A program made the translations under genes and the position numbers. Under the pieces are notes generated by a model, which worked only from the letters and a program-made list of their open reading frames with translations, was not told the origin of the DNA and made no database searches. From positions 7,090,001 through 7,154,000 of the forward strand of contig OZ038472.1 of the NCBI GenBank assembly GCA_964036295.1: a stretch of 64,000 bases of DNA. The letters are read 5' to 3'. This document shows positions 3,481-62,207 of the stretch, piece by piece. Position 1 is the first letter of the stretch; each line of letters begins with the position of its first letter. This DNA comes from Plumapathes pennacea (taxonomy: Eukaryota > Cnidaria > Anthozoa > Antipatharia > Myriopathidae).

Positions 3481-4140
3481 AATAGTGCTGAGTTAACGGA
3501 AACTGAGAAGGATGAAAGGAACTAGCAAACAAAAGATCAAAGTTTAAGTATCCTCAGAAACGCCAAGAGTTAATAGCCTGCTATAACAAATCAACATTAA
3601 CACTTATGTAAGAGTCAAATCCTCCCTCCAAACTTGAGCTGATTTTCCCATCTATTCTTTCGCGTTGCCCTAGTGCACTTGCTGATCACGACGTACTGAA
3701 ACCTTTCATTGGTACCGATAACGTTCGTTAGTGTTCATTTTCCTCCGAATGGGGTCTGCTTTCCACTATTTATAAGCAGCATTCCTTCAATAAAAGAGCT
3801 TTTTTGCTTTTTTGTTGTTATCAATTTTTGTTTTAATAGTTAGTTTTTTTGTTGTTGTTTTGTTTTGTTTTTGTTTTTGTATCTGTGGAGCCCAACCGGA
3901 GCAGCATCGTAATTTCTGTCCACACAGTAAGGCATTTGACCAAAAGATAAATAAAAAGTCAAATATGCCCGGGGAGGATGATCACAGTTGGAATTGACTT
4001 TATACACAATAGTGACATAAGATCGGCCAAATATATTTTTATGTTGTTACATGTGTAACAAAGCGCCCACACGCGATGCGTTGGAAACTTTTCATCGGTG
4101 TTTTGACAGGGGTTTCTTGTCGAAATGTAAAGTTCGATTT
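3481..4140. other. 3' flank with polyadenylation signal and TTTTG-rich run
   Basis: No gene is seen. An AATAAA hexamer at 3789-3794 could end a transcript of the broken gene upstream. It is followed by a simple T/G-rich stretch (about 3820-3882, repeated TTTTGTT units). Confidence 0.4.
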
Positions 4141-4145
4141 GTGCA

Positions 4146-4258
4146 CCTGGTTTTCACGAGCGACGCAACTGCAAGCGCAACACAAGGATCAAAATATGTT
4201 CTGGTCCTTGTGCTTGCGCTAGCGTTTGTGCTTGGGCTCCGTGACTTGTTTACATTTG
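4146..4258. mobile_element. Small foldback MITE
   Basis: Two arms, about 4146-4190 and 4200-4258, are built from AAGCGCAA / TTGCGCTT-type units (CTGCAAGCGCAACACAAG on one side, CTTGTGCTTGCGCTAGC on the other) and pair imperfectly in inverted orientation. The outer ends resemble the foldback element at 23.1-23.3 kb. There is no coding capacity. Confidence 0.45.
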
Positions 4259-4264
4259 ACAATT

Positions 4265-5250
4265 AGCATACTAATGTGTTCTTTTGGGAATGCGTCCGAC
4301 TGCGAGCAATTGTGTTTCGCAGCAAGGGGATAAAACTTAACTGCCTTAATTGGTGGAAGTGTATTTTCAAAGGCGACATGTTGACAAAGGTAAAAAAGAT
4401 TCGAGCTACAAATTTTAAAAGTTTGGAATGCATCAAGCGCATGTCGTGACACATAACGACGCGTGACTAATAAACCAAATACACGGCACGTATTCCTAAG
4501 CAGCAGTATATTTGTGTGGAAATGAATCAGCCATATCTGTAAAAGATGTTTAGTGCCTTGGAAACTGAAAAATAGTGTATTTTAAATTGCTCTTTTGTTT
4601 CCAGCCTCAGTTTCGAGGATTGCGTGCGTTCCGAAAATTAAGTTAAATTTGATTACATTTCACTCGGCGTACATACAAGAACCCAAGAAAATAGATTCAT
4701 ACAAACTCATCTCAATGTTTTAACTATGTTCTGTCTAAATCTAAAGGATTTTGTCCGTTACCACAGGGTGTTTTTTCTCTCCTGATATTATGCACTAATT
4801 TGATAGTCTCAAGATGACGGACAGTGGGGCAACGCTATGACTCGTAGCGCTGTTGAAAATAATGCCAGGGGCGACTATTGATGCTGAATTATTAGAAGGT
4901 TAGTTATGAATATAATTACCTAAAAAAGACCTCTAAATACAGTAAATTTTACTGTAGCACGATTTTAATATTGGCAATTTTTGGTCACCAGGAGGCTCAA
5001 AACGATCGAAAAGGATTTTGATGCGTTGCTGGCTGAAAAACGATTTCATAGACAAACTAACCTTAGCATGTTTTGTTTGAGTGTATACCCTACTAGTATA
5101 CAACATATGGGCCGAAGTGAATTTTGGGCCGTTGCCGCGAAATTTCGATTCTGACTCGATTTTTACTGACATTTACTCTTAAGCCCGAATGGTGCCTTGA
5201 GAAATCTTTGAATTTAGACAAAAATCCTTGAAATGTTCAGGAATTTCTAA
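4265..5250. other. Unassigned intergenic stretch
   Basis: AT-rich sequence with only short chance ORFs on both strands. I recognise no gene, RNA or terminal repeat. Confidence 0.4.
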
Positions 5251-26775: not shown

Positions 26776-26875
26776 TTTTCATTTCGGATAACGTTTATTT
26801 GAAGCGCTAAATGAATCATTCATTTTTATTAACGTGGTGGCTCTTAAGAGAGCCGTTGTTTTGAGTGGCAGGCCA

Positions 26876-27640: not shown

Positions 27641-28045
27641 CAAGGCAACCAAAAATTGCACCATATTCAAGACACTATTGCAAAATGCTTTATTCCACGT
27701 AATTTTCCTTAGGCAACAGAGCCGTCTGCATTTACGCAGCAATACATATCAGGTACAAAACTCCTTGTAACAAATACGTCTTGTCAAGTGCTATCATATA
27801 GACAAAGTGATGGCAAGATAAACATTATGTGAAAAGGTGGGTTACAAATCATTCAATGTAATCGCAATATTCTTGTTGTGCAGGGCAAGAGTTCAAGCTG
27901 AAGTAGGAGTTTAAATTAGTTGAGTGTTGGAGATAAGTTCCCTGTTTAAGACACGAAAATGTAAAATCAAATACCATATTTAAGCCAGCTGGAGGACCCT
28001 GAAAACTATACCCTATCCAGCAGAACGTCCCTATAGAAAATATAG
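27640..28045 (-). repeat. Repeat R2, minus copy
   Basis: Inverse of 22577-22980 with scattered mismatches. It abuts the point where the LINE endonuclease ORF loses homology, so its insertion or a recombination there probably removed the reverse transcriptase of that LINE. The last 12 or so codons of the endonuclease ORF (from YIFYRDV on) are read from R2, not from the LINE. Confidence 0.6.
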
Positions 28046-28899
28046 GGGATAACTCTAAGATGTGGCGGGGTGTTGCATACAGTTGACTTGAGCCAACCGA
28101 CTAATTGACTATGATCTGATATATATGAAGGTTGTTTCACTATGAAGTGGTCAAACTCGTGGATAAGATCTTGATCGCAAATAATATAGTCTACGACACT
28201 AGTTCCATTCTTGCCGTGATACGTTGGGCGTCCCAGTGTATTACCGTTTGTTCGGCCATTAAGAATCTTCAAATCGAATTGTTTGCATATTTCTAGTAAT
28301 CGTTTGCCGTGATTATTTATGTTGTTGTCAAAACTATGACGATTGGGCAACTTCAAAGAGATGTCAGATCTGTCGTTCTTGATTAGGTTGTTTCCCGCTT
28401 TGGACACCGAATCGGCGTATGTGCCGGTTCGGGCATTGAAATCCCCGAGGAGAATGATGTGGCCTTTTAATAAGTAGCGGGTGAGGTCGTTTTCTATTTG
28501 TTCAAATATTTCATTATAGAAATGTGGCGAATTTCGTGGGGGAATGTATAGGCCGCAGACGTATACGTCTTTAGAATAGCCCCAGATGTCTTTCGACAAT
28601 TTACACCATAAAGAATGATTGCAATTTTGAATCATAGTGATGTGATTTTCGAATTTGTCTTTGAACAGAAAACTTATTCCACCAGATTGTCGACCTGAGG
28701 GAGATTTTTGATTTGAAAGAATCGTGAAACTTTTGAAACCTGGGATGTCGAGGTTTGACGGATTCCGGATTTCTGTAAGCATCACAAAATCACAGTGATT
28801 TACATTCGACAAAAAGTCGCGATTAAGTAGTTTGTCACTTAAAGACTTGCTGGATAAGCCATTGATATTCCAGGTGTTAAAAGAGATTCTGGAACACAT
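28040..28899 (-). CDS. LINE A ORF2, endonuclease domain (truncated)
   Basis: Exonuclease-endonuclease-phosphatase fold. NTWNINGL near the start is the first catalytic Asn block. Further on are LTEIRNP (metal-binding Glu), GLYIPP, LLGDFNAR (Asp/Asn block), RPTYHGKNGTSVVDYI and SDHSQLVGW (catalytic Asp-His). All expected motifs are intact across about 285 residues. Target-primed reverse transcription needs the RT domain, which is absent. The annotated end is the R2 junction; the open frame runs on to 28006. Confidence 0.85.
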
Positions 28900-29055
28900 G
28901 ACAATTAAATATACAAATTCTAACCTATATCCTGAGATTACTTAAAGTGATATTCATTGAGATTATAATAATATGAGGGGCAGGGAGGGGAGGGGGAATA
29001 ACAGAAATACTATTGATTGAAAGTATAACTGTTTAGTAAACTAAACGATTGATGG

Positions 29056-29490
29056 CTATATTAGGCCGTTAAAGAACTGAATAAGTGAGAGTATTTTTGT
29101 AGGAATACTCATGTTCATAGTTCCTCCTTGGCTTGGGGGATCAGTGTTCACGTTCATTGGGTTTCTGTTTATTTGCTCTTTGGTGGTAAGAGGCTGAGGT
29201 ATCGGCAGAGGTGGAGCCGCTGGTGGTACCGTGACTGTAGGTAGAGACTGTCGTGCAACAGCGGCGTATGTTGGGGTTGGTGTCCTTGGGTGATATTCCC
29301 TCAGAGGTCGGCTGTTTGTTGGAGACGAGTTCAGGTTCTGAACCGCTGGCCGATGGAAATTAGCGGGACGCCGTCCGTAAATCACACTTTTCAAGTTTTT
29401 CGCAAAGAGCTTGACACCGGCGTTAGTTATTGAGGTGTTTGGAGTCGTGGAGGATAGGGAAATTTGAAAGATGCAGATTTGTATGATCAA
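29056..29490 (-). CDS. LINE A ORF1 C-terminal Pro-rich linker
   Basis: A reading frame overlapping the end of the SGNH ORF continues with basic and Pro/Thr-rich sequence (RPANFHRPAVQN, PPAAPPLPIPQP). It probably belongs to ORF1 after a frameshift near 29450, because SSTTPNTSITNAGVKLFAKN is the expected continuation of HDSKHLNN. Function unknown; perhaps RNA binding. Confidence 0.5.
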   Translation of the reverse strand: MIIQICIFQISLSSTTPNTSITNAGVKLFAKNLKSVIYGRRPANFHRPAVQNLNSSPTNSRPLREYHPRTPTPTYAAVARQSLPTVTVPPAAPPLPIPQPLTTKEQINRNPMNVNTDPPSQGGTMNMSIPTKILSLIQFFNGLI

Positions 29491-29854
29491 TTAAGTGGAC
29501 ATTTGCCAGGCGTGAGCATCGTCGCTCGATCAGGGAATTAATTGTTGTGATGTCCTCGGGGCGTACGTCTTGGCGTGGAAGTAGTGTAGAGTATAACACT
29601 CTGGTAAATGGATATTGTTTGGCTGTAGTTTCAACCAGTTTGCTGATTTCAGATGCCAGATGTTCAATCGGGCCAGATTGATCCAGATCGTTTGTACCAG
29701 TATGAATCAGTATTGATTCAGGAGAATCAAACGACAAAGTTGCAATAATTTCACTTCCCCGTTTGACTGTGGGGCATCTCAAGTAAATATTGTTCTTATC
29801 CGGGCAGAGTTTCTTGGGTTTCAGGTTTTTTCCATTGGAATCGCAAAGGATCAC
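29423..29854 (-). CDS. LINE A ORF1, SGNH/GDSL esterase domain
   Basis: SGNH-hydrolase signature: CDSNGKNL near the start (nucleophile Ser in the D-S-N block), HTGTNDLD (block III, Gly-x-Asn-Asp), and HDSKHLNN (block V, Asp-x-x-His). ORF1 proteins of many CR1-clade LINEs carry such an esterase domain. Its role in retrotransposition is not established. Confidence 0.8.
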   Translation of the reverse strand: MILCDSNGKNLKPKKLCPDKNNIYLRCPTVKRGSEIIATLSFDSPESILIHTGTNDLDQSGPIEHLASEISKLVETTAKQYPFTRVLYSTLLPRQDVRPEDITTINSLIERRCSRLANVHLIDHTNLHLSNFPILHDSKHLNN

Positions 29855-30015
29855 AATGTTTGCTTTGTCGGCGTTGTTCTCATTTCCGGCAACTTGGCGA
29901 TCATATCGGCTACTTCCGGTGTTTGTACTTTGCTGATTCTTCGTTCGCCTCGTTTCGTTCCGGTTCGGCGTTTCAGCTTCTGTTGCGGCTGGTAGATCCG
30001 AAGTGTAAGCAGGAT

Positions 30016-30449
30016 CTATCTTTTTTCTTGTAATACCTCAAATCTGTTGTTTAGTGGGACATCCGGTGATATGACTGTGGCTGGGGTCTCCTGTCGCGCA
30101 GGGAGCTCTTCTGTAGAAATTTCGCTGCACAGTTTTACTGGGCCTTTCTTCAGGGACTCTAGTTCTTCCTTAATGTTGTCGTGGTTCTCCTTCAAGCTTG
30201 AATATTTTTCCTCCAAGGTGTTCTGCTTGGTACATGATGAGTTTGCTTGATCTTGGAGTTTTTTACTGTTTGTGAAAGGGTGCAAAGTTGGTCAGTTAGC
30301 GTTTCATTTGAGGCAATCAACTCTTTGTTTTCCTCTTCGACTTTTTTTAGTCTTAATTTAAGAGCGTTTTCAGATTGAGTAAATTTATCCTTCGTATTGC
30401 TGTCGAGAGTAGTCAGGGCATCTTGAAGAGATTGTATATTCTGGGTCAT
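30016..30449 (-). CDS. LINE A ORF1, coiled-coil segment
   Basis: Two overlapping frames (30449-30192 and 30285-30016) together encode a long heptad-rich coiled coil (LKLRLKKVEEENKEL, then LEEKYSSLKENHDNIKEEL). One frameshift near 30265 separates them. Coiled coils drive ORF1 protein multimerisation in other LINEs. Confidence 0.6.
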
Positions 30450-31255
30450 ATCTTAAAGGCAATAAATTCAGATTCCATATTTGCCACTGACGTTCGTAGA
30501 GATGATATGGTGTGTAATCTGCTCGGGGTGTAGCTCAAAGCAGGGGTCACCACATTCTGAATGTCCTCCGAAACAGTCTTTAGAAATTCGCCGGTGTGAT
30601 TGACTTCCGGCGGCACGCTTGTTGGAGCTTTGGTGGTGTCAACTTCAGTTGGCGAGGTAACTCCTACGACCCGATTTGGTTCATCTTGCGAGGTATGAGG
30701 GTTCCATAGGTTTGACAGAGGGGTCGATGTGAATAAATCGAGATTAAAGTCATCGGGATTACTTACAGCTAGCTTGTTGACGGCCTCAAGAAGTAATGGA
30801 AATTCGGTTGCACTGAATTGTTGGTAAAATCTCCCTTGTATAAAGAAAGTTCCAGTGGAGACGAAAACGGTGATCACTATCACGTGTTGTTCCTTCTTGT
30901 CCTCCGATCTGGTATAGAGATGAAGAATAATTCTATCACAACGATCTTCGGTTACAGGCGAGTCTTGTTCCTCCCAGGTAGCACGGAAGCCATCTGTTTG
31001 GTACTTAAAGTATCGTTCCATCAAACAGCGAATCCAGAGACCTATCCGCTCTTCTGACGTGGAGAAAGCGATACTCTTGGCCTTCGGCTTATATAGATCG
31101 AGATTGATCTCCTCGAAGCGGGCATCTTTGGCTTTACCAGATACTGGGTTGAACATTTCCACATGATATTGACGGAGCGTTTCATCTGGAGTTGTGGCGC
31201 AGACTTGCGGTTGTGACAACCGTGCTTTTTTCGGGCAGTTGGTTTCAGTGGCCAT
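30446..31255 (-). CDS. LINE A 5' ORF, 269 aa, uncharacterised
   Basis: Starts MATETNCPKKARLSQPQVC and is open for 269 codons. Its stop overlaps the next ORF start by 4 bases (ATGA), so it is the first unit of ORF1 or a translationally coupled ORF0. The central part has alternating hydrophobic strands (HVIVITVFVSTGTFFIQGRF), suggesting a folded alpha/beta domain I do not recognise. Confidence 0.6.
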   Translation of the reverse strand: MATETNCPKKARLSQPQVCATTPDETLRQYHVEMFNPVSGKAKDARFEEINLDLYKPKAKSIAFSTSEERIGLWIRCLMERYFKYQTDGFRATWEEQDSPVTEDRCDRIILHLYTRSEDKKEQHVIVITVFVSTGTFFIQGRFYQQFSATEFPLLLEAVNKLAVSNPDDFNLDLFTSTPLSNLWNPHTSQDEPNRVVGVTSPTEVDTTKAPTSVPPEVNHTGEFLKTVSEDIQNVVTPALSYTPSRLHTISSLRTSVANMESEFIAFKI

Positions 31256-31339
31256 TTAGGTTCACAATAAAGTTTAAATAAACTCAGGATATCAACGGTT
31301 CCATGAGAATTTGTTAACAATTTGCTAAGCGTCGTGCAG

Positions 31340-31460
31340 AGCGAGAGAGAGAGAATGAATGAATGAATGACGTTTATTTAAACTCGGAATTCCATCAATA
31401 AAAGTAAATTGCTTTTCATGGAAGCCGAAATAAAAGCTAACAGAGTATACAATATTAACA
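31340..31460 (-). repeat. GA/TTCA simple repeat and retroposon tail
   Basis: GAGAGAGAGA followed by (ATGA)n. Read on the minus strand, it ends a sequence (TTTATTGATGG..., then (TTCA)n) that looks like the 3' tail of a LINE or SINE. It continues upstream into the R1-related block at 31462-31900. Confidence 0.55.
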
Positions 31461-31461
31461 A

Positions 31462-31900
31462 GTTTTGTCGCGTGAAAACGCGACAGATGCTGGGATTCAA
31501 GTTTGGTGAGGCAAATGTCCGCACGCACCATAAGAATTGTTGAATAAGCAATCTCTGGACTAGGGCGAGACTCCCAAGAGTGATCAACTTCAATTTTCTC
31601 TTTCAATTTCTCACCCGAAAAAATATTATACAGTATGGGGAACTTGGCTTTGGATTTACTCAAATGAACCTGATTAAACTATAAATTATAATTACAACAC
31701 TCGTACATTTGCTTCAAAAGGATGAGAGAATCTACATTTTGAGTTTGGGAGTAATTGCGTGACTTATCTCATTTTCATGCATAATTGATTTTGACAGCTT
31801 GACTTCGAACATTTGTTTCTAAGGCCACAATTAATCTAGCCTGCGCTTCATCGCTTACCTGTTTTTCGTCTTCTAAATTGCGTTTCTTCTACCAAGCTTT
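31462..31900 (+). repeat. Dispersed repeat R1, copy c, with extension block
   Basis: Shares R1 landmarks from 31560 on. It shares an extra block (TCGCGTGAAAACGCGACAG, GCTGGGATTCAAGTTTGG) with copy f at 55.3-55.75 kb. In both copies the extension leads to a simple-repeat tail. Confidence 0.6.
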
Positions 31901-32337
31901 CTAAATTCCAGTCGGCCTGTTCTATTTCTGAGCTATTATCACCGCGGTTTTGATGAATTCACGGTTATTTGATGAGCGTATGCTAGAGCTGAAAAACCCA
32001 GCCGGGAGCCACTTCAGCTTGTCGAAATGGTATCGTTTTGATTATGTTTGCTTTCCTTCGCTTAGTTTTAACCAGCTGGACGAAGAAAAATGCGAAAGTG
32101 AATATAATGAACAAAAACCGCAAGAGCGCAAGTATACGTCAACAAAAATCTCACGTTACATACTTTGAAACTCAGCCAAGAAAAGAAAGGCTTCCACGCC
32201 GCTTGCACCTGAACATTATCCAATCAAAATATAGCATTTTTGCTTGCACGTCAATCAAAATTCAAAATCCTAGAGGGGGACTTCTTTTACCAATTGTCAT
32301 GACACCTAGGCTGTGGTTTTCGGGTGAAAACAATTAT
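31901..32337. other. Unassigned stretch
   Basis: Two overlapping plus-strand ORFs of 72 and 104 codons, no known domain, no supporting splice or homologous copy. I do not call a gene. Confidence 0.3.
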
Positions 32338-32361
32338 ATGCTGGGCCCTTAGGCCCAGCAT
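32338..32361. repeat. Perfect hairpin at LINE B 3' end
   Basis: ATGCTGGGCC-CTTA-GGCCCAGCAT, a 10-bp perfect stem with a 4-base loop, sits at the apparent 3' terminus of LINE B. In some LINEs (for example eel UnaL2) a 3' stem-loop is the RT recognition signal. By analogy this could serve LINE B. Confidence 0.6.
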
Positions 32362-32439
32362 AAAAACTATCTAAATACATTGTACTACTTAACTTACTAA
32401 TAGAATAAATAACATTATACTGCTAATATTATATCGCGC

Positions 32440-35319
32440 AACCTAAATTCCTGGTGATAGGAAGATGAGAGAGCCTTTTTGAACGACTTTAATGTTTGAT
32501 TGTCTTTCAGATTGTTTGCTAATCCATTCCAAGTCTAGGGCCGCAGTACTTGAAACTTTTTTTATTCCGTTCTCGGTAGTGGAAGAGAAAGGTTTTGGTT
32601 CTTTCCTCTTAAGCTATAAATGAAGTTTTCGCTATAAGATTTAAACAGGTCAGCTTTGTTATTAAGCATCTTGAACATAGCAACAGCTTTGTGTTCGTTG
32701 CGTCTCTCAACTAGCGTATTCCAACCTAGATCGGAACGGATTTCATGCGATCTGACTTCGTACCCCTGACGAGTGATGACCCGGGCTGCACGATTCTGTA
32801 GTTTTTGCAGTCTTTCGGCTGAAGTTTTAGGTAGTGTATCCCAGGCTACATCACAGTAGTCAAATAAGGGGAGAATTAATGAGCAATAGATAGTTACTGC
32901 GGTTTTGGTCGATATAAATGGTCTCAATTGGCGTAGACCCGAAATTGCTGGGGATATTTTCTTCGAGATATAATCTACGTGGTCAGCCTATTGTGCTTAC
33001 AATTATTGTGCTTACTCATCAATGTAGACTCCTATTGATTTAGCAGATTTCACCCTTTTTATTGGGATACCGTTCATTGAAATCTGTGGAACACATGTAA
33101 TTTTTCCAAGGTTTGAGTCAGATCCTATGAAAAGTTGCTCAGTCTTACTAACATTGAGACTTAACGTGTTGGCTAGAAGCCAATCTCCAATACTGATAAG
33201 GTCACGGTCGATATTGTGTATGATTTTGTTCAGTGATAACCCGGACGTGGTAATATTGGTGTCATCCGCGTACATTCTAGGTGTTGAATAATGAAGGGAG
33301 CAAGGGAGATCGTTTATATATAACAGAAATAGCAGGGGACCAAGGATGGATCCTTGGAGGACCCCGCATGTTATCTTTCTGGGGGATGAGATTTTCCCGT
33401 TTACACAGCATAATTGTTCTCTATCTGTGAGATACGATTTGAACCATTTACAGAACCTGTCTCCCACTCCATATAACGATAACTTTTTGAGCAAGATGCT
33501 GTGATCGACCGTGTCGAATGCTTTGGAAAGGTCCAAAAATATTACAGAGTTAATTAGCCCTTTATCTAAATTTGAAAGCCATAAAGTTGTGGCGTCCAGT
33601 AAAGCATAAAGCGTGGAATATAAAGGGCGAAATCCTGTTTTCATCGTTCAGGTACTTATAGATTTGGTTAAACACAAGTCTTTCAAACACTTTGGCAATA
33701 GCAGGAATTACCGAAATGGGTCAATAGTTATCAAGGAGATCTTTTTCCTTCGTCTTATGCAGTGGAGTGACTTTTGCCCTTTTCCATTCTGATGGGAATA
33801 CACTTTTTTCAATTGATTTGTTAAATAGCTTTGTAAGAGATTTTGTTATTACTGGTGCCGCCTCTTTGATGAGGCAACACGGAATCTCGTCCAGGCCAGT
33901 AGCTTTTGCTGGAGATACTGATGTCAGTACTTTCAACACTGTGTCTCTGTCCACTGGTTGTAAGTGGAAAGAGGATAGTGTTGGCGTGATGTATTCCTCA
34001 AATGATTTTGAGGACTCGCCTAATGTTGAAGCTAATCGAGGGCCTATATCAGTAAAATGTTGATTAAATATTTCAGCCATTTGATTTGTGTCGTTAATTG
34101 AACGCCCTTCTGTCCTTATCGAAGTTATATTGTTATCTTTCTTGGTGTTTCGAGACATTACTTGATTGATAGTTCTCCAAATTTCCCTCGAGTTGCCAGA
34201 GTTTTTGGCAAAATGATTGTGATAGTACAAGGCTTTGGTCTTTTTAATTTCATTATTAGTTGCATTTTTAGCACGTTTATAGTTCGCCCAGTCCAATGGA
34301 TTATTAGATTTTATAGCAGCCTTTTTAAGGCTGTCTCTCTCTATAATTCGTTTTCTAACGTTTCCGTTTATCCAAGGAGATTTCTTGTTCTTGATTCGTT
34401 TTCGTTTAAGAGGGGCGTGTTTGTCAGCAACAGTAAGAAAGATACTCTTCCAACGCATCCACATATCATTCGGATCGTCAAGGTCCATAGTGTCCTCCGA
34501 AAGTAGCATATCCAAGTCCTCTCTAAATTCTTCAGTGTTAAAATGCTTCATTTGACGTACTCTAGACATCTTTGGCTTTGTTTTTGAGGGAATTGCAATT
34601 TTTCGAATGACATAAATTAGGCTGTGGTCACTTATGCTCAACTGTAATACTCCAGAGGACACTACTCTGTTGGGATTGTTAGTCAGTGCAACGTCAATTA
34701 AAGTACGGCTACTTTCTGTGATGCGGGTTGGTTCAGTTATAAGTTGTGCAAATTGATATTCTTCATTAATTAATTTTAGTTTCTGTGTTGGACGGTCCGA
34801 TTGATTAGCTAGCAAGTTACAATTGAGGTCGCCCAGGAAATATACTTTTTTATCTTCACTGTCAAGTGTCTCTATTATATTAGTGAAAGAATGGAAAAAA
34901 GTATCGACATCTGAACCTGGAGGTCTATAGCACGAGACGACAGTGAAGGCCCGGCTATTTGGTTTTTCTATTTCAATACATAGTGCTTCTATTTCGTCTG
35001 AAAGTAGATCAGATCTGATATTGAAGTTTATAGTACTTCGCATGTACATACAAACGCCACCACCATTCCGATTTCGGTCTCTCGTTATAAGATCGTAGCC
35101 TGAAAGCTCGATATGGTTGTTATGAACTGTACAGCTTAGTCGGGTTTCGTTAATTGCTAATAAATCAAGAGTTTGATTTTCTATCCAGATTCTTAATTCA
35201 TCTATGTGTGCTGTTAGGCTTGCAATATTTAGAGAAGCCATTTTGAAACCTCGAGTTTTAGGTATCACATTCTCAGGTATTCGCCCAGTAACTAAGCTCT
35301 GCTCTTCATTTCCTATCAC
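32440..35319 (-). pseudogene. LINE B ORF2: endonuclease and reverse transcriptase
   Basis: The first 532-codon frame (35319-33721) holds the endonuclease: MASLNIASL, AINETRL, CYRPPGS, LGDLNCN and SDHSLIYV. A linker follows, then RT start (ATGLDEIPCCLIK, EWKRAKVTPLHK). After a stop at 33720 the palm continues (33644-33012): FLDLSKAFDTVDH, GVLQGSILGPLLFLLYINDL and the YADD box. The thumb and C-terminal block (FDYCDVAWD, LQNRAARVIT) is at 32927-32562 and runs past a stop to about 32440. The endonuclease half is fully open; breaks cluster in the RT half. Confidence 0.85.
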
Positions 35320-35328
35320 TGTAGAAAT

Positions 35329-35946: not shown

Positions 35947-36562
35947 CGGGGAAAGGAAGGAGGGCCTGATTGCAGGTTACTTGTTTCTTAAACAAGGACC
36001 CTGACTATGAAAGGACCGTTGGACAGGCCAAGCTGTCACTCATTTCGCTCCAGACCTCGAGCCGTGAGCATCACCACCAATGCGCTTTTACATTTCAGTG
36101 ATAACAGCCAAAGAGAGAGAGAGAGAGATAACTAAAGCGTATAACTAAACACATTATACACAATACCTTCTGAAATTTTATTTTATTACTTTGAGCTCGA
36201 GAGTATTTATTAGGAATGTCAATTGTACTACTATTTTAATTTAGCTTTAGGATAACACGTAAAGAAATGAAATCGACAATATGAGTACGAGCGCAATGCG
36301 AATTTCCCGCCTAGACCAACGGGTCTTTGGCTCAACCAGATATCCGCAGGATCAAAGGTCCTTGCTTGCACGGTTTTTGATTACAGCGATAGACACAACA
36401 TTTACACAGAATAAAGAAAGTGTTTCTCGTTACCTGCCGCTAAGGAGAGCAAATCTCGGTTTGCGTGAACGCATCAACTCTTCCGTTGGCCGAAGGAAGG
36501 AACACGACGACTAGACACATGTCCCCGTTCTTGCTGCTCAAAAGAATCTAAAAGCCGTTCCT

Positions 36563-36769
36563 ACGGTGGCCCAGAAGGCTCAACACAAAAAAAAAAATAC
36601 AACGCAAATTAAAAGAGCACAACACAAATAAAAACATCACAACGCAAATAAAATATTAAAAAATAGCACAAAAAAAATCGCAGCTCTAATAAAAAAAGTC
36701 GCAAAGCAAACAAAAAAGTCGCAACACAAACAAAAAAGTCGCAACACAACGACAGAGGGACTGGGCTCG
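36563..36769 (+). repeat. Left terminal inverted repeat (subterminal repeat-rich)
   Basis: Pairs with 41605-41813. The outer 37 or so bases are near-perfect. Then come short direct repeats of two classes (CAACGCAAATAAAAA, and GTCGCAA-CAAACAAAAAA, each 19-20 bp), and the arm ends with GACAGAGGGACTGGGCTCGA. Repeated units are the usual layout of transposase binding sites. Confidence 0.85.
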
Positions 36770-36860
36770 AGTTATCTCTGACCAAGTTGACTGAAGGCTC
36801 TGTAAGATTTTCGCGCGAAAACAGATCATATTCCAGTGTGAGAAACACTTCCTAACTGCC

Positions 36861-39800
36861 ATGTTTTGTTCACGCTGTGGGAAGGAGGTGAATCAAGATG
36901 CGAAATTTTGCTGCAATTGTGGAACGTCCGTTTCGATTGCACCATCTGCCATTCAACCAACACCAACCTGTGGCATAGAAGAGTTTAAAAAGAGGAAAGA
37001 GGCTGAAAGACGCTCAAAATTCCAGCCCAAATCCAAGCGAGGTAAAACTGGTAACAAAATGGAAAAACCGGTTCCACCAAAACATGTCGCTATAAATATT
37101 GGCTTCATGAAGTATACCAATGGGTATTTGAAGAAATGCCGCGGTAAACTCTTCCGATCAGAGTTCCTCCATCGGCGAATGCTGCTATGGTAAAGGAGAA
37201 AGCTGTGCGCAAGCACGCAAATCATGATAAATCTGTCCTCGATGGAGTCGACTATGCACTACTTTACCCCGATGGCAGCCAGGTTGTCTTCCTGCCAGGA
37301 TCGTTTGATCCATTTATCCTAGAAAAATACAGAGACGACCTCGGAAGGAATTACAGCCGAATAACGCTGTTCATTGCCCTAAAAGATGACTATCTCGCAG
37401 CGGAAATGGAAGAATTTGAAGGCTCCAAGTACGAAAAGAACGGCGATACCGGCGATGAGAGCGAGTTCGAAAAGAGTGTCTTTGACGACTGCACAGACAT
37501 CAGTCACAAGTTGGACGGTACCCCAAAGCATGCCGTGATAGATATAACTGGAGATCAACCTGGGCCATCTAGTGATAATGGAGTAGACTCCATGGCAGAA
37601 TGTCCAACCTGCTTCGGGCAATTTCCAATCAAGATAATAGCTGACCACGCAGACTCATGCTGCGATGTATGGGTTGGAGAAATAGAGGAAACAGAGACAG
37701 ATTATGATTTCTGCCCGCCTCAGGTTAATACGGTGGCTGCTTTAGAAGACGTAAACCTGAATGGTGTCATTGAAAGCTTGGTGCAGTTCGTCCCGGAAGC
37801 GAAGCAGGTGAATCTGCGCGTCCGCCGGAAGGACTTATGGGCAGACGTGAAAAAGGTCCATGAAAGAGGAAAGCTGTCCCCAGGTCACCCTTTGAAAATA
37901 CAGTTCATTGGAGAGCCAGCAGTGGATGATGGGGGTCCCCTTCGTGAGTTTTTTTCAGGTAAATTAAATATGGGATAGTGCCTAGTAACTTTTGCATACA
38001 TCATAGACTGAAATATGTACTTACAACTGACTTTCAAATTTTATTTTGCTGAAAACATGAGATATGCTGAGGTAGAACAATTGAATGTCACTACCAACCA
38101 TAAGTTATTGCCTCGCATTAGCTCTCTATACCTTTTACTAATTAATAATATTAATCAATTCCTTTTTTTTTTTCCAGAAATACTGGCAATCATAGAGAGG
38201 AAGCTTTTCATATCTGGAAAGCCTATCACATCGACCATCTCTCTTAGCGGCAATGATTTTTACTTGGCTGGATTGCTGATGATTACATCAGTTCTACAAG
38301 GTGGGACAGCACCATCCTTTTTAGACCCAGGTGTGTATCGGTACTTGACAAACCAGCCACTGTCTCCAGAAGACAATGATGCAAAGTACAAAGATGCTGC
38401 CAAGAAGGTATCTACTACAGCAGTTTTCAAATGATTATAAAAAATAAACAGTGAAAACTAAATTAACAATCACTTACAATCAGCATTAAGTTACAATTTG
38501 GCTCCCAGTCAGCCAATTTCCAAGCATCATACTTAGTCAGTTCACATAGACAGTACACTATTCTTTAATATGAACCCAAATGAGTATAATTAGCAGTATA
38601 GTGAAATCTATTCACGTACAATATTTTCGTTTATATGTTGATTTTTGTTCCCTTAAGATTCAGTCAATAACCATTGTAAAGGATCTACAAGATGTCCTTC
38701 TGCAGGATGATGTTTTTGAAGTCCTTGAAGAGATTGGATATGCTGGGGTACCCAGCAGAGAAACTCTCATTTCCTCATCAGATATCATACAGTGAGTATG
38801 ACACATTTTACTTTATTGTGACAGTGAAATATCACTACCTGCACTCCACTGTTGATGAATCTGCTTCAGTAACAGAGGGAACTGGCTTGGCTTTACTACA
38901 GGGTCTTGATGGATGGGGCACACATAACTTAAGTTAGAGGTCATTTGATTTAGAGCCTGTTCTTAGTTTGAGCACATGTTTTAAAACAAATGCTCCTTAC
39001 TAATGCATAGCACACTACATGGAGTTGAGTACTTTTGTCAAACATAATTATCCAATTGCAGGTCAATTTGCATCAAGAGCCAGATGTGCTCCTTCCTACC
39101 CCAACTGATGCAGTTAGAACAGGGCCTCAGCAGCTGTGGTGTCCTAGCATCTGCAAAGAAGTATCCTAAACTGTGGGAACCTGTTTTCACTTCAGGTTGT
39201 GTTGCATGCACACCCACAGCTGAAGACTTTCTGAATGATCTCATTGTTGATTTTAGCCTCTCCCAAATCAGAAAGGAGAAGGAGATTGATGTGTACAAGT
39301 TATTTTGTGACTTTGTGGAGTCTTTAGAGGAAGAAGGTATCTTTATTATCCATTAGTGTTTATCCTTCTTGGTAACAAAAGAAAACATATTTGAAACTGC
39401 TGTAATCCCGTACACATGCCTTTTTCTAAAACTGCTAGACCAGAAAGTGTAGCAACAAAGAACTTGAAGAATGTAAAGATTACTGCCAGAGCTGGAAATT
39501 GCAAAAACATGGTCATCAATATTAAGGAAATCTGGAGTTTGCAAAATTTTCGGATAGTACAAGAGAATACAATCCTACCTTGCACCTGCAGGAGAGTGGA
39601 ACTAAATTTAGTGTTTTAATAACATTTATTAATACGAACGGTAACATGTTGATATTACCAATATAAACATTCTTTATTTTTATTAGGTTCAGGTGATATC
39701 ACTATTGGTGACCTGATGAAATGGCTGTCAGGCTCTGGAACAGTTCCTGTGCTTGGATTCCAGAAGAAGTTTTCTATTTCTTTTGTACATGGTTGTAGAG

Positions 39801-39937
39801 ATGCTTGCAGGTGCCGGCCTACTGCTTCAACATGTGATCTGTTGCTAAAGTTGCCAGTGCACATCAACAACTTGCAGGAAATGGACACTATCATGACCTC
39901 TGCACTGAAAGACTGCACTGGTTTTGGCTTTGTGTAA
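36861..39937 (+). CDS. HECT-domain E3 ubiquitin ligase-like gene (transposon cargo)
   Basis: Five exons with GT-AG junctions: 36861-37958, 38178-38407, 38658-38791, 39062-39336, 39687-39937. Phases agree at every junction. One frameshift lies near 37148 (one A missing after GGTAAA); restoring the count gives about 662 codons. Residues 3-20 form a zinc ribbon (CSRC ... CCNC). A UBZ-like CPTC-x11-H-x3-C lies at about 247-266. The HECT domain runs from IQFIGEPAVDDGGPLREFFS through ALLQGG-like SVLQGGTAPSFLDP and SALKDCTGFGF, with catalytic Cys at about 629 in ASTCDLLLKLP. It resembles G2E3-type HECT proteins. A HECT ligase accepts ubiquitin on that Cys and transfers it to substrate; the substrate here is unknown. 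It lies wholly inside the transposon and converges on the transposase gene. Confidence 0.85.
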
Positions 39938-40076
39938 TGTGTATTTTATCTGGGAAACACAAAACCTCTTTGCTTGTTATTGTTACGAGATATTGCCCAT
40001 GTCACCATTTCATTTTTGCACTTTCAAATTAGAAGCTGACATCTGTGATTTTTTGTTGCCCTGGTTTATGGTAAAA

Positions 40077-41558
40077 TTATCTGTTTGCAATGTCAATTAA
40101 TCTCAGAAATAAACTATATGCTTCATCAGTACTCTTTGGGTATTGGAAATTATCATTTTCCATAACATAATGGAAATATTCCTGATACAAGTTCAGTTCA
40201 CATTCGTGACTGTCAAGTTCATCCAAATGAAGTTCCATTTCACGCACTGTGTCTGCTGGTACAGGCACCATACAATCAGAGCTTCCAGAGCGTTGTGGTA
40301 GATAGTACAGGACATCGGGTACACCAGGAACAGTGCCATGTCTGGATGGGCGAATTCTGTGGGTATTCCAGTGTTTCTTCACATTATCCAGATCCTCTTG
40401 CAACACACCATTATAGCAAAACCATAAACACTCTGTGTGTAACTGACTTCCTAAGTCTAATATTCCACTTTCAACCATACCTTTAAATAGATCTATCCAC
40501 CAGGAAGACCTGCCTCTTCTTAGGAAGGACCACCAACACTCAATTCTCTGGTTGCTTGGAGATGTGCCATACCTATGTGATTTTTCTCCAGCAAATTGAT
40601 CACTTCCATGTTGCCTGAAATATGTTTGCATTGCAGCCATTGTTCCATTTTCTGTCCCACAGTCAGTTCTTACAAGTATTGGGCAACCAGAGTTTTCTGA
40701 GACACAGTCCAGAAAAAAACTCGCAATAGCTTCTGGTTTGTTGTTGGATCTAGCAACTTCTAGCCAGAGAATTTTTCGGCTGTACCCATCTATGGCTCCA
40801 TGTATGGGGAAGCCAAATGGTTTCAATTTGTCGTACCCTAAAAGAGTCAATATAAATTAATGTGAAACTATTTGTAATATTGCATGTATGCATCAGTTTT
40901 CAAGCTGTTCAAACAGTGGAAATAATTTTATAAGCCAAGACCTTGACAATGATACATCTCTTAAAATGTATATTTTAAATGATTGACCAAACTAGGAGCA
41001 TAATAAATTCCCTGTCAAAACATAATTAGTACGTAGTCAGTTAGGAGAATTTTGATGATAGGGAGCAACAGAACAGCTATTTTAGTTGAGTTTTGATTCC
41101 TATCGAATTGCGTAAGTTAAGCAACTGAAATGTTTAAAAAGCTCACCGTCAACATGCCAGCAGAAGTTGGGACCATAACTCAAGTATCGCCGTCTTGCCA
41201 ATCTCCTGCTTCTTCTTTGCTGACTATTTGCAGGGTCCAGTTCTCGTACAAGCTCAGCAACCCGCTGCCTCGGAACGTGAATGTGATGATTTAATCGTAG
41301 TGAGTGCCAAACAGCCCTATATCCACGAAGCTCACCAGGCCCCGAAATTTCTTGACGAACGATGTCCTTGAGTTTTTCTTCATCTATTTCAACACCTCTC
41401 CTTCGTAAGCCGTAGTCTCTTAACCTTCGCTTAAGAGTGGCTAAACTAATAACAATCTCGTGTCGATGTACTAAGAAGTCGAGAATTACTTTGTTTTCAA
41501 ACCCTTGATGAAAGTAATGTTCTAGAATGCTTCTCAGCTCATCACGATCGTCTGCCAT
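40077..41558 (-). CDS. IS3-like DDE integrase/transposase
   Basis: Two exons, 41558-41147 and 40837-40077, give about 390 residues with a phase-1 junction joining CWHVDG to YDKLKPFG. The N-terminal third is helical with HTH character (ILDFLVHRHEIVISLATLKR). The catalytic core (rve-like) has Asp136 in WHVDG, Asp196 in RTDCGTENG and Glu237 in QRIECWW, so all three acidic residues are present; the intron falls just after the first. Frame is fully open in both exons. It should cut and join the 36563 and 41813 ends. Similar genes are common in cnidarian and fish genomes, usually annotated as integrase core proteins. Confidence 0.87.
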
Positions 41559-41604
41559 CGGAAAATGGCGGGAGAGACAGCGCGGTTACCATTCGGGGGA
41601 TATT

Positions 41605-41813
41605 CGAGCCCAGCCCCTTTGTCGTTGTGTTGCGACTTTTTTGTTTGCTTTGCGACTTTTTTTTATTAGCGTTGCGACTTTTTTGTTTGCTTTGCGACTT
41701 TTTTTATTTGCGTTGTAATGTTTTTATTTGCGTTGTTATGTTTTTATTTGTGTTGTGATTCTTTTTATTTGCGTTGTATTTTTTTTTTGTGTTGAGCCTT
41801 CTGGGCCACCGTA
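41605..41813 (-). repeat. Right terminal inverted repeat (subterminal repeat-rich)
   Basis: Inverse of 36563-36769, with the same GTTGCGACTTTTTTGTTTGC and TTTTTATTTGCGTTGT unit series. It has one or two more units than the left arm, so the arrays have changed in copy number. The transposase ATG is at 41558, 46 bases inside it. Confidence 0.85.
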
Positions 41814-41819
41814 CGTTCC

Positions 41820-60239: not shown

Positions 60240-61450
60240 GTAAGTAAAACACTTCCACCCACTAAATACTGCCGTACAGGTCACCCTGCTCCGCTCGTCG
60301 TTGTAACTGAAGTTTATATGGTGATTTAACTCGGCTGCCGACGGGATTTTCCCATACTTTCTGTCACGAACTTACAACTGTGGATCGGGCAAGCTTTCAC
60401 TAGAAAAATGCAACTAACTATGAATGCTAGTGGTGTCGTTCTTTCTTAAGGATTTGCAAATGTAATAATTCTTTTTTTGTTTTGGCCGGTGCTCATACAG
60501 TATGACCGAGGAAGCACTTTCCCAATTTTAATACGTACGTAAACATTAGTGTAAACATTAGTAATCGCCAGTCAAGCCATATTTTATTAAATTACTCCAT
60601 TTTCGACTGTAAAGGCTGTAGTTCTCTGTTAATCAAACGGATTGCGCGTTCATGATTGAAGTCCGGTCCTCTTTTGTTACAGGTTATCGTGTCCAACCAC
60701 AGGCGGCCCAATCGCGTGGGTCGTTATAAGGGATTAGTATGGAGAATATCACTCGATCGCTAAACTGCAATTTTAACAGGAATAATAAAGCTTTATCACA
60801 CTGACCTTGTTCATATGTGTAATTTATTGCTTCTTGTGGTGGTATTTTGGCGCTAGAGCGTCTCTAGACGGAATTTTGTCGTTTTCTTCCCCTCCAGTAA
60901 TAAAAATGAGAAGGCTGGAGACTGTGATTTCAAACCGTCCACACTTGCAGCTCGATAAATTCCAGTCGGAGGTCCAAATATCCACAAAATTGCCAGCAGC
61001 CTAAAGAAATGTAAATTTACTTCTCAAATAATGTCTTCCGAAGTGGAAACGGTCATCAGAGTGGCTCTCAAGGCCCGATGTTTTGAGCCAAATCGACGAT
61101 TTGAAAAATGTCAACAGGCTTGGACCTCGCATGCATGACAGCAACACGGCTTCGTGATCGCCCTCCAAGACTCAACCCGGGAGGGTACGGTGTCTTTTGC
61201 GCCGCGCCAGCAAAAACTTTCCAGAGTTCCCACGGGTAGGTGAATGATACTCTTTTGTTCCCAGCGACCACTCACAGTCGAATGATGTCGAGAGCAAGAG
61301 CTTTCCCTCCAAGAAGTGTTTTTCCCGGTCGAGTAGACGAGTATAATTACTTATGTTACGATGAATCCATTCAAACACGTTCAAACACGTTCAAGTCCTT
61401 TCATGTCCGCTAAAAGGTATTATTTAATAATTTCTAACTTCACAAAGGCG
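60240..61450. other. Unassigned stretch
   Basis: No gene recognised between the TTAA element and the helicase fragment. Confidence 0.3.
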
Positions 61451-61508
61451 CTGTTTGCATGGTCAAAGTTTAACCGAGGTCACGAGCAAAACGCTTTTAG
61501 TGGCTGAG

Positions 61509-62207
61509 ATGCAGCTCACTCTCGAGCAATCCAATGCCGTGCAGTTTGCTGCGAGTGGGCACAACGTCTTAATTACGGGCCAGGCAGGGGTTGGAAAATC
61601 TCAAGTTGTGCGAAAAAGGATTAAAAACTGCCACAAATCAGGGAAAAAGGTTGCACTAGTTTGCTCGAGTGGGATTGCCTGCACCGTGTACGAGAATGGA
61701 CATGCCACGACAGTACACTCATATTATGGCATGCAAACCGCTGATTTCCATTGGAGACAGCTCGTAGAGCGTGTCGTTACCACAGCAGTTCTCCAAAAGA
61801 AACTACGAGCAGTGGATGTAATAATATGGGATGAAGCCAGCATGTCAAGCAGCCGAATGCTTGAACTTGTAAACGCAATTCATCACCAGTTATCTATCGG
61901 TGACAGTCCCAGAGAGATGATGCCATTTGCAGGAAAGCAAATGATGATCGTTGGAGAATTTCTGCAGCTGAGGCCAGTGCCTAACATCTTTGATGACGGT
62001 ACATTTATGTTTAGGTCGAGCATCGCGATACCTCATCGTTTCCAGCTGACAACTGTTATGAGTAAGTCACAAAGAGACGGAATGTTCCTGAAGACTCTCA
62101 AAGAACTTCGCTTAGGACTCTGCTCAGCAGAAACAGCCCTTTTCATGGCACGCCTGGCCCGTCGCCTAGAAGGAGATGCTGAGCAAATTTCGTTCTTGAA
62201 AATTTAG
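61509..62207 (+). CDS. PIF1-like helicase fragment
   Basis: From MQLTLEQSNAV the frame holds helicase domain 1 of a PIF1/RecD-type SF1 enzyme: Q-motif-like start, Walker A GQAGVGKS, motif Ia (VCSSGIACTVY), Walker B DEASMSS, motif III GEFLQLRPVP (usual G-D-F-x-Q-L, here Glu for Asp), and an Arg/Gln-rich region. It stops at 62207, before domain 2 motifs IV-VI, so no complete helicase is encoded. Such genes occur in animal transposons (including Helitrons) as well as in PIF1 itself; no Rep/HUH motif is visible here. It could be a first exon, since no intron junction is visible at the stop. Confidence 0.75.
   Translation: MQLTLEQSNAVQFAASGHNVLITGQAGVGKSQVVRKRIKNCHKSGKKVALVCSSGIACTVYENGHATTVHSYYGMQTADFHWRQLVERVVTTAVLQKKLRAVDVIIWDEASMSSSRMLELVNAIHHQLSIGDSPREMMPFAGKQMMIVGEFLQLRPVPNIFDDGTFMFRSSIAIPHRFQLTTVMSKSQRDGMFLKTLKELRLGLCSAETALFMARLARRLEGDAEQISFLKI

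Follow-up and report, generated by a model that had tools for sequence, protein, structure and literature searches.

The window analysed here is a stretch of 64,000 nucleotides from the antipatharian coral Plumapathes pennacea (contig OZ038472.1, positions 7,090,001 to 7,154,000; C11:7090001-7154000 of a 290-Mb genome), and it contains a precisely bounded transposon of 5252 bp at 36562-41813. From comparison of its ends, genes and relatives we consider it highly probable that this transposon is a member of the IS3EU superfamily with an inherited set of two convergent genes, one for a DDE transposase and one for a HECT ubiquitin ligase that is under selection and predicted to be catalytically competent. 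Rather than a passenger, the ligase seems to be a long-standing part of the transposon that is maintained by selection. An earlier sequence-only reading of the window had placed the ligase in the toolkit of the transposon itself, for example as a possible means to degrade a host silencing factor or regulate the transposase. The assignment to the toolkit is strongly supported by the presence of both genes in four of four full-length copies, by a tail-to-tail arrangement throughout some 18 families, by co-divergence of the two genes, by the retained catalytic cysteine and by constraint between families.

Results

The terminal 18 bases of the element, TACGGTGGCCCAGAAGGC at 36562-36579, recur as their reverse complement at 41796-41813, and the outermost 35 bases of the two ends are 100% complementary. 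They form part of inverted repeats of about 209-210 bp, which are built of tandem sub-repeats of about 20 bp, and the 6-bp target duplication CGTTCC lies on both sides of the element. The sequence-only reading had delimited the element as 36557..41819, with a perfect 6-bp duplication and inverted repeats of ~207 bp; the duplication and the repeats are indeed there, but the start was off by one base (36556) and the repeats measure slightly more than was given. The features of the element are as follows.

36556-36561, no strand: left target-site duplication CGTTCC, read from the sequence
36562-36770, plus: left terminal inverted repeat, with ~20-bp tandem sub-repeats
36861-37958, plus: HECT exon 1, with a zinc ribbon, a region of unknown fold, a CxxC-x11-H-x3-C finger and GEPAVDDGG (start of the N-lobe)
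38178-38407, plus: HECT exon 2 (N-lobe)
38658-38791, plus: HECT exon 3
39062-39336, plus: HECT exon 4
39687-39937, plus: HECT exon 5, with the C-lobe and the catalytic Cys (TASTC); PF00632, 39.7 bits in the L010 copy, with the window locus also among the genome-wide HECT matches
40077-40837, minus: transposase exon 2, with D196 and E237; PF24764 (rva_4), 110 bits
41147-41558, minus: transposase exon 1, with the start codon, a helix-turn-helix-like region and D137
41604-41813, minus: right terminal inverted repeat, with ~20-bp tandem sub-repeats
41814-41819, no strand: right target-site duplication CGTTCC, read from the sequence

The transposase gene, on the minus strand, is open in the window copy and encodes 390 amino acids in two exons (41558-41147 and 40837-40077). 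The acidic triad D137-D196-E237 is in place, as the sequence-only reading had said of this gene, and is invariant across four aligned transposases. The protein matches the integrase core rva_4 of Pfam (PF24764) at 110 bits. No CxxC was found in residues 1-137, which means that the HHCC motif is absent, and neither an OTU nor a Ulp1 domain is among the Pfam matches.

On the plus strand the HECT gene runs towards the transposase gene, with 139 bp between the ends of the two genes. Its five exons, with GT-AG introns and agreeing splice phases, had been described correctly, but the frame of the window copy proved to be broken by a single-base deletion in exon 1, near 37145, that is absent from the other three full copies. 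Reading from the first ATG (36861) meets a stop at 37193, and the remainder is open from an inner ATG at 37187. HECT proteins pass ubiquitin on through a C-terminal Cys, and the one that had been pointed out in the motif ASTC is residue 629 of the 662-amino-acid protein of copy L010. In Pfam the L010 protein matches the HECT domain (PF00632) at 39.7 bits against a cut-off of 23.9, over the C-lobe only, and a zinc ribbon at 24.3 bits, slightly under the cut-off of 25. A CxxC-x11-H-x3-C finger, with a spacing that we take to be that of ubiquitin-binding Rad18-type fingers, lies ahead of the HECT domain in 6 of 13 loci scanned (3 of 7 families) and is without a Pfam match in the scan of the L010 protein. 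The GEPxxDxGG-type motif, presumably that of the HECT N-lobe, is present in 7 of 12 loci scanned (window, L009-L011, L029-L031); the pattern was not found in L032, L034 and L088-L090, yet L032 aligns across that region. By sequence, the best relative of solved structure is UBE3C (E 0.0017).

Three further full-length copies in the genome (L009 on C1, L010 and L011 on C12) are 98.7-99.1% identical to the window copy, and both genes lie between the ends in all four. Both frames are open in L009; L010 has an open HECT frame and a 2-bp deletion in the transposase, and L011 an open transposase and a 2-bp deletion in HECT. The target duplications are CGTTCC in the window, the 7-bp TGAGCGA in L009, and ATTGCG in L010 and L011. 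Because the latter two have common flanks they are one insertion, duplicated afterwards, so that the four full copies represent three independent insertions, two of them beyond the window. Eight of the 13 exact matches to the ends belong to these copies; around the five elsewhere no interior match, no transposase and no HECT was found. Copies with these ends that consistently lack the ligase gene would have counted against the sequence-only reading, and no such full-length copy was found within this genome. Of the genes of a 95% identical relative, L019, only the transposase side, interrupted by stops, and the final HECT exon remain. At C5:16061483-16063154, facing ends about 1.7 kb apart enclose a match to the N-terminal part of the HECT protein only, with no transposase among the matches listed; this is probably a deletion derivative.

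Three further families of this kind were delimited. L029 (C7) measures 6329 bp, with ends TACGGTGGCCCG and the target duplication GGATGG, and the ends of its HECT exon matches coincide approximately with those of the window family, as judged from protein matches rather than splice sites. L034 (C2) measures 6376 bp, with ends TACGGAGCCGTG and the duplication GCTTTA; its convergent HECT gene differs in exon structure and scores 34.7 bits against PF00632. L088, L089 and L090 have ends TATGGCGCTTGATTGAGG and the duplications agtacg, gtttgg and ttcgaa, and hence are three separate insertions. L027 (1553 bp) and L028 (1261 bp) are deletion derivatives in which duplications and remnants of both genes are present. 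The termini are TACGG..CCGTA in the window, L009, L010, L011, L027, L028, L029 and L034, and TATGG..CCATA in L088-L090. Duplications are of 6 bp in the window, L010/L011 (one insertion), L027, L028, L029, L034, L088, L089 and L090, and of 7 bp in L009. Tandem arrays occur in both ends of the four families measured, with family-specific units of 20, 23, 12-28 and 17 bp; the L088 ends (640-952 and 4098-4363 within C1:27348600-27356600) hold 16-19 copies of the 17-bp unit. The L088 family is compact and recently moved, with five places of equal Pfam score, three of which were examined.

Across the genome the two genes are associated in a single orientation. Protein queries gave 110 matches for the transposase and 70 for HECT, and 16 of 32 HECT loci lay within 6 kb of a transposase locus, all 16 convergent, with transposase identities of 29-99%. 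The Pfam scan returned 119 HECT matches and 152 rva_4 matches, of which 150 were used; since 150 of 236 rva_4 candidates were scored, this is a lower bound. Clustering yielded at least 65 HECT and at least 117 rva_4 loci. Under uniform placement 0.28 HECT loci would be expected within 5 kb of an rva_4 locus, and 37 of the 65 were found there: 37 convergent, none divergent and none on the same strand. Additional convergent pairs from protein queries alone were added by hand (C2:22556539, C3:7912027, C4:2593774, C1:38341529, C1:11523593), and one more (C7:9585492) came from the transposase query combined with the Pfam HECT scan. Near-identical copies are not independent, and clustering of the 34 elements for which both parts were read gave 18 groups, or about 18 families. 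Short-pattern scans of viral contigs and GTDB genomes, and tblastn of phages, found no relatives beyond this genome.

The highest rva_4 scores in the genome, 277-280 bits, belong to C1:18089174-18089743 (L091 downstream) and three look-alikes at C1:16291107, C1:12446269 and C2:17887853. Their frames are of 408-525 amino acids, the Pfam scan shows none of them with a HECT partner that is its own, and these genes are possibly those of a different element or a domesticated gene.

The HECT C-lobe was read in 37 elements, 32 of them from the 37 Pfam pairs and 5 others, and the catalytic Cys is retained in all 37. Among the transposase rows that have a residue at the position concerned, 31 of 33 keep the second D and 29 of 30 keep the E. 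Between families, the ratio of nonsynonymous to synonymous substitution rates (dN/dS) of the HECT C-lobe is 0.07 (c1_16611/c1_14720), 0.18 and 0.18, values that are rough at a synonymous divergence (dS) of 1.8-2.0; the transposases of the c1_16611/c1_14720 pair gave 0.13 at a dS of 0.71. Fisher tests on HECT in two family pairs gave p 3.6e-12 and 3.0e-13 with approximate site counts. Among the four full copies (six pairs, with 1-8 synonymous changes each) dN/dS was 0.20-0.57 for HECT and ranged from 0 to undefined for the transposase. Twelve further pairs gave seven finite HECT values, namely the three between families given above and 0.56, 0.74, 0.92 and 1.80 for close copies, and five that were undefined through lack of synonymous change or saturation.

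The distances of the two genes are correlated in Mantel tests, with r 0.59 over 35 elements and 0.36 over 25 representatives (both p 0.0001), and with r 0.31 (p 0.0005) over 22 lineages, a set that leaves out the probably nested c1_16293 and the near-duplicates c12_5524 and c12_6138. Trees of 26 elements have matching main clades and agree broadly. Over the 25 representatives the mean distance was 0.69 for the HECT C-lobe and 0.60 for the transposase, HECT thus being somewhat more diverged.

The remainder of the window holds other features. Endonuclease (PF03372/PF14529) and reverse-transcriptase (PF00078) frames of LINE-type (long interspersed) elements lie at 28009-35328 on the minus strand, a histone 3' untranslated region stem-loop (Rfam RF00032, 35.5 bits) at 26814-26859 on the minus strand, and a PIF1-like helicase frame (PF05970, 73.2 bits) at 61431-62204.

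Discussion

Our results favor a transposon that carries its own ubiquitin ligase, but several observations weigh against this interpretation and it should be read with them in mind. The C-lobe profile used to find the genes spans the catalytic Cys and so favours loci that retain it. The dN/dS of HECT in close copies spans 0.20-1.80, which fits copies decaying after landing, as expected. Some discordance between the trees is seen for L031, c1_11030 and c2_26616. At C1:16293640 the HECT part is identical to another family's at 54 of 55 positions and the transposase at 60 of 168, and the pair is for this reason probably a nested insertion, as judged from these identities. No HECT neighbour at Pfam level accompanies 80 of the 117 rva_4 loci; many of the unpaired loci are fragments, and some have a HECT picked up by protein query alone. 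One unpaired type, C1:18089174 with its frame of 525 amino acids, has no HECT in the 2 kb read downstream, where a frame weakly resembles a phage-type integrase or tyrosine recombinase (19.3 bits, below the cut-off of 27.1). Moreover, the N-lobe motif was not found in three of three copies of the L088 family, of which only L089 weakly matches a middle exon. The HECT of this family may thus be incomplete although the copies moved, and in this recently mobile family movement may not depend on a complete HECT gene in cis.

Two explanations would deprive the ligase of a role in transposition. Were the HECT gene a passive passenger, a captured host gene without function, the broken frame in the window and the failure to find the N-lobe in three of three L088 copies would be readily accommodated, and gene capture by transposons is common. 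Such a passenger would hardly be met in about 18 families, in one orientation in 37 of 37 pairs, with the Cys in every C-lobe read and with constraint between families, and we regard this explanation as very improbable. That host HECT genes merely adjoin transposons, or are joined to them by an assembly artefact, draws on the 28 of 65 HECT loci without an rva_4 neighbour, many of which have several exon matches and by eye resemble ordinary host genes. In several families, however, both genes lie inside the same inverted ends with distinct duplications; these shared ends and duplications exclude a host neighbour for the delimited copies, and for the pairing as a whole we give the idea practically no weight.

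If the ligase is a working component of the transposon, the following mechanism can be proposed. Each gene appears to start just inside one of two near-identical terminal repeats, and because of this position the repeat probably drives both genes as a promoter. The transposase would cut at TAC..GTA and insert with a 6-bp stagger. A host E2 would charge the Cys of the ligase with ubiquitin, and the ligase would transfer this ubiquitin to a nuclear protein, to the advantage of the transposon.

With regard to the identity of that protein, a host chromatin or silencing factor, reached via the N-terminal part that differs between families, is a realistic candidate, although we would put it at slightly less than an even chance; the terminal repeat arrays, which are specific to each family, would perhaps bring such a factor to the element. 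We favour this type of target over the transposase or repair proteins because of the precedent of VANC, a transposon protein that binds family-specific non-coding tandem repeats and removes silencing marks (PMC10398659). In a more elaborate form, suggested by the analogy, the family-specific N-terminal part would recognise the family-specific arrays and ubiquitinate silencing proteins locally, as a proteolytic counterpart of VANC in a targeted counter-defence; we consider this form unlikely. It is possible, if somewhat doubtful, that the ligase instead ubiquitinates the transposase, limiting its dose or, once insertion is complete, dismantling a stable strand-transfer complex. The strict linkage of the two genes and their co-divergence are consistent with such a target, and near-identical repeats acting as promoters would match the dosage of the two proteins, but co-inheritance alone accounts for the co-divergence. 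It seems improbable that the substrates are DNA-repair proteins at the break, modified by the ligase to bring about repair of the donor and target sites. The finger present in 6 of 13 loci, with its presumed Rad18-type spacing, would suit this role, but its assignment is tentative and it has no Pfam match. For the OTU and Ulp1 proteases of Ginger1 a part in repair has been suggested (Bao et al., PMC2836005), and by analogy a HECT ligase might be the writer to these erasers.

Accessory proteins already reported from transposons include ubiquitin or SUMO proteases (PMC2836005), a TET/JBP dioxygenase (PMC12730594), a SET methyltransferase (by a title cited in PMC12730594) and anti-silencing factors (PMC10398659). 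If many families keep a dedicated E3 ubiquitin ligase as their second gene, it would add a new type of accessory enzyme, and its substrate would offer direct access to the old question of how elements of the cut-and-paste type cope with silencing and repair by the host. A further prediction is that transposons are the source of some of the HECT genes annotated in animal genomes. In the fish Cottus, an unclassified amplified repeat matches the ubiquitin ligase G2E3 (PMC5638112), and this repeat may likewise be a transposon that carries a HECT gene.

Comparison with known systems

The sequence-only reading had called the element IS3-like; the eukaryotic IS3EU superfamily is the better name. Elements of IS3EU have TA..TA termini (TAYGG..CCRTA in fungi), 6-bp duplications and an integrase-like DDE transposase without the HHCC motif, whose first D lies 100-300 residues from the N-terminus (PMC10045372, PMC12730594). 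The termini, duplications, type of transposase and absence of HHCC in the window element fit a member of this superfamily of cut-and-paste DNA transposons. A second gene opposite in orientation to the transposase is likewise found in TET-bearing fungal IS3EU families, where it encodes an alpha-kinase (PMC12730594), whereas here it encodes a HECT ligase. GingerRoot, compared by its description in PMC10045372 only, shares 6-bp duplications, mostly TA..TA termini and a related transposase, and is not separable from IS3EU for this element.

Other superfamilies were rejected. Ginger1 likewise combines an integrase-type transposase with a ubiquitin-pathway enzyme, and occurs in the cnidarian Hydra; it differs in a zinc finger and in a transposase whose own C-terminus bears OTU or Ulp1 protease domains (PMC2836005), whereas the window element has a separate convergent ligase gene, no CxxC in the N-terminus of the transposase and no OTU or Ulp1 among its Pfam matches. 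Ginger1 and Ginger2 have duplications of 4 or 4-5 bp, IS481EU has TNT..AYA or TGT..ACA termini and duplications of ~4, ~15 or ~25 bp, and bacterial IS3 has TG..CA termini and duplications of 3-5 bp (PMC10045372), as against TAC..GTA or TAT..ATA and 6-7 bp here.

The literature searched yielded no HECT-bearing transposon and no joint mention of IS3EU and HECT, and the main texts of PMC10045372 and PMC12730594 do not contain the word HECT; an earlier mention in Repbase or the GingerRoot paper is possible. Among HECT E3 ligases (PF00632) the protein is typical in its C-lobe above the Pfam cut-off, its catalytic Cys and its GEPxxDxGG motif, and it is set apart by its divergence, with a match confined to the C-lobe, and by its zinc ribbon and other N-terminal parts. 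The VANDAL elements of Arabidopsis are Mutator-like, and their VANC protein is not a ubiquitin ligase. They nevertheless resemble the transposons described here in combining a non-transposase gene with family-specific tandem repeat arrays in non-coding regions (PMC10398659).

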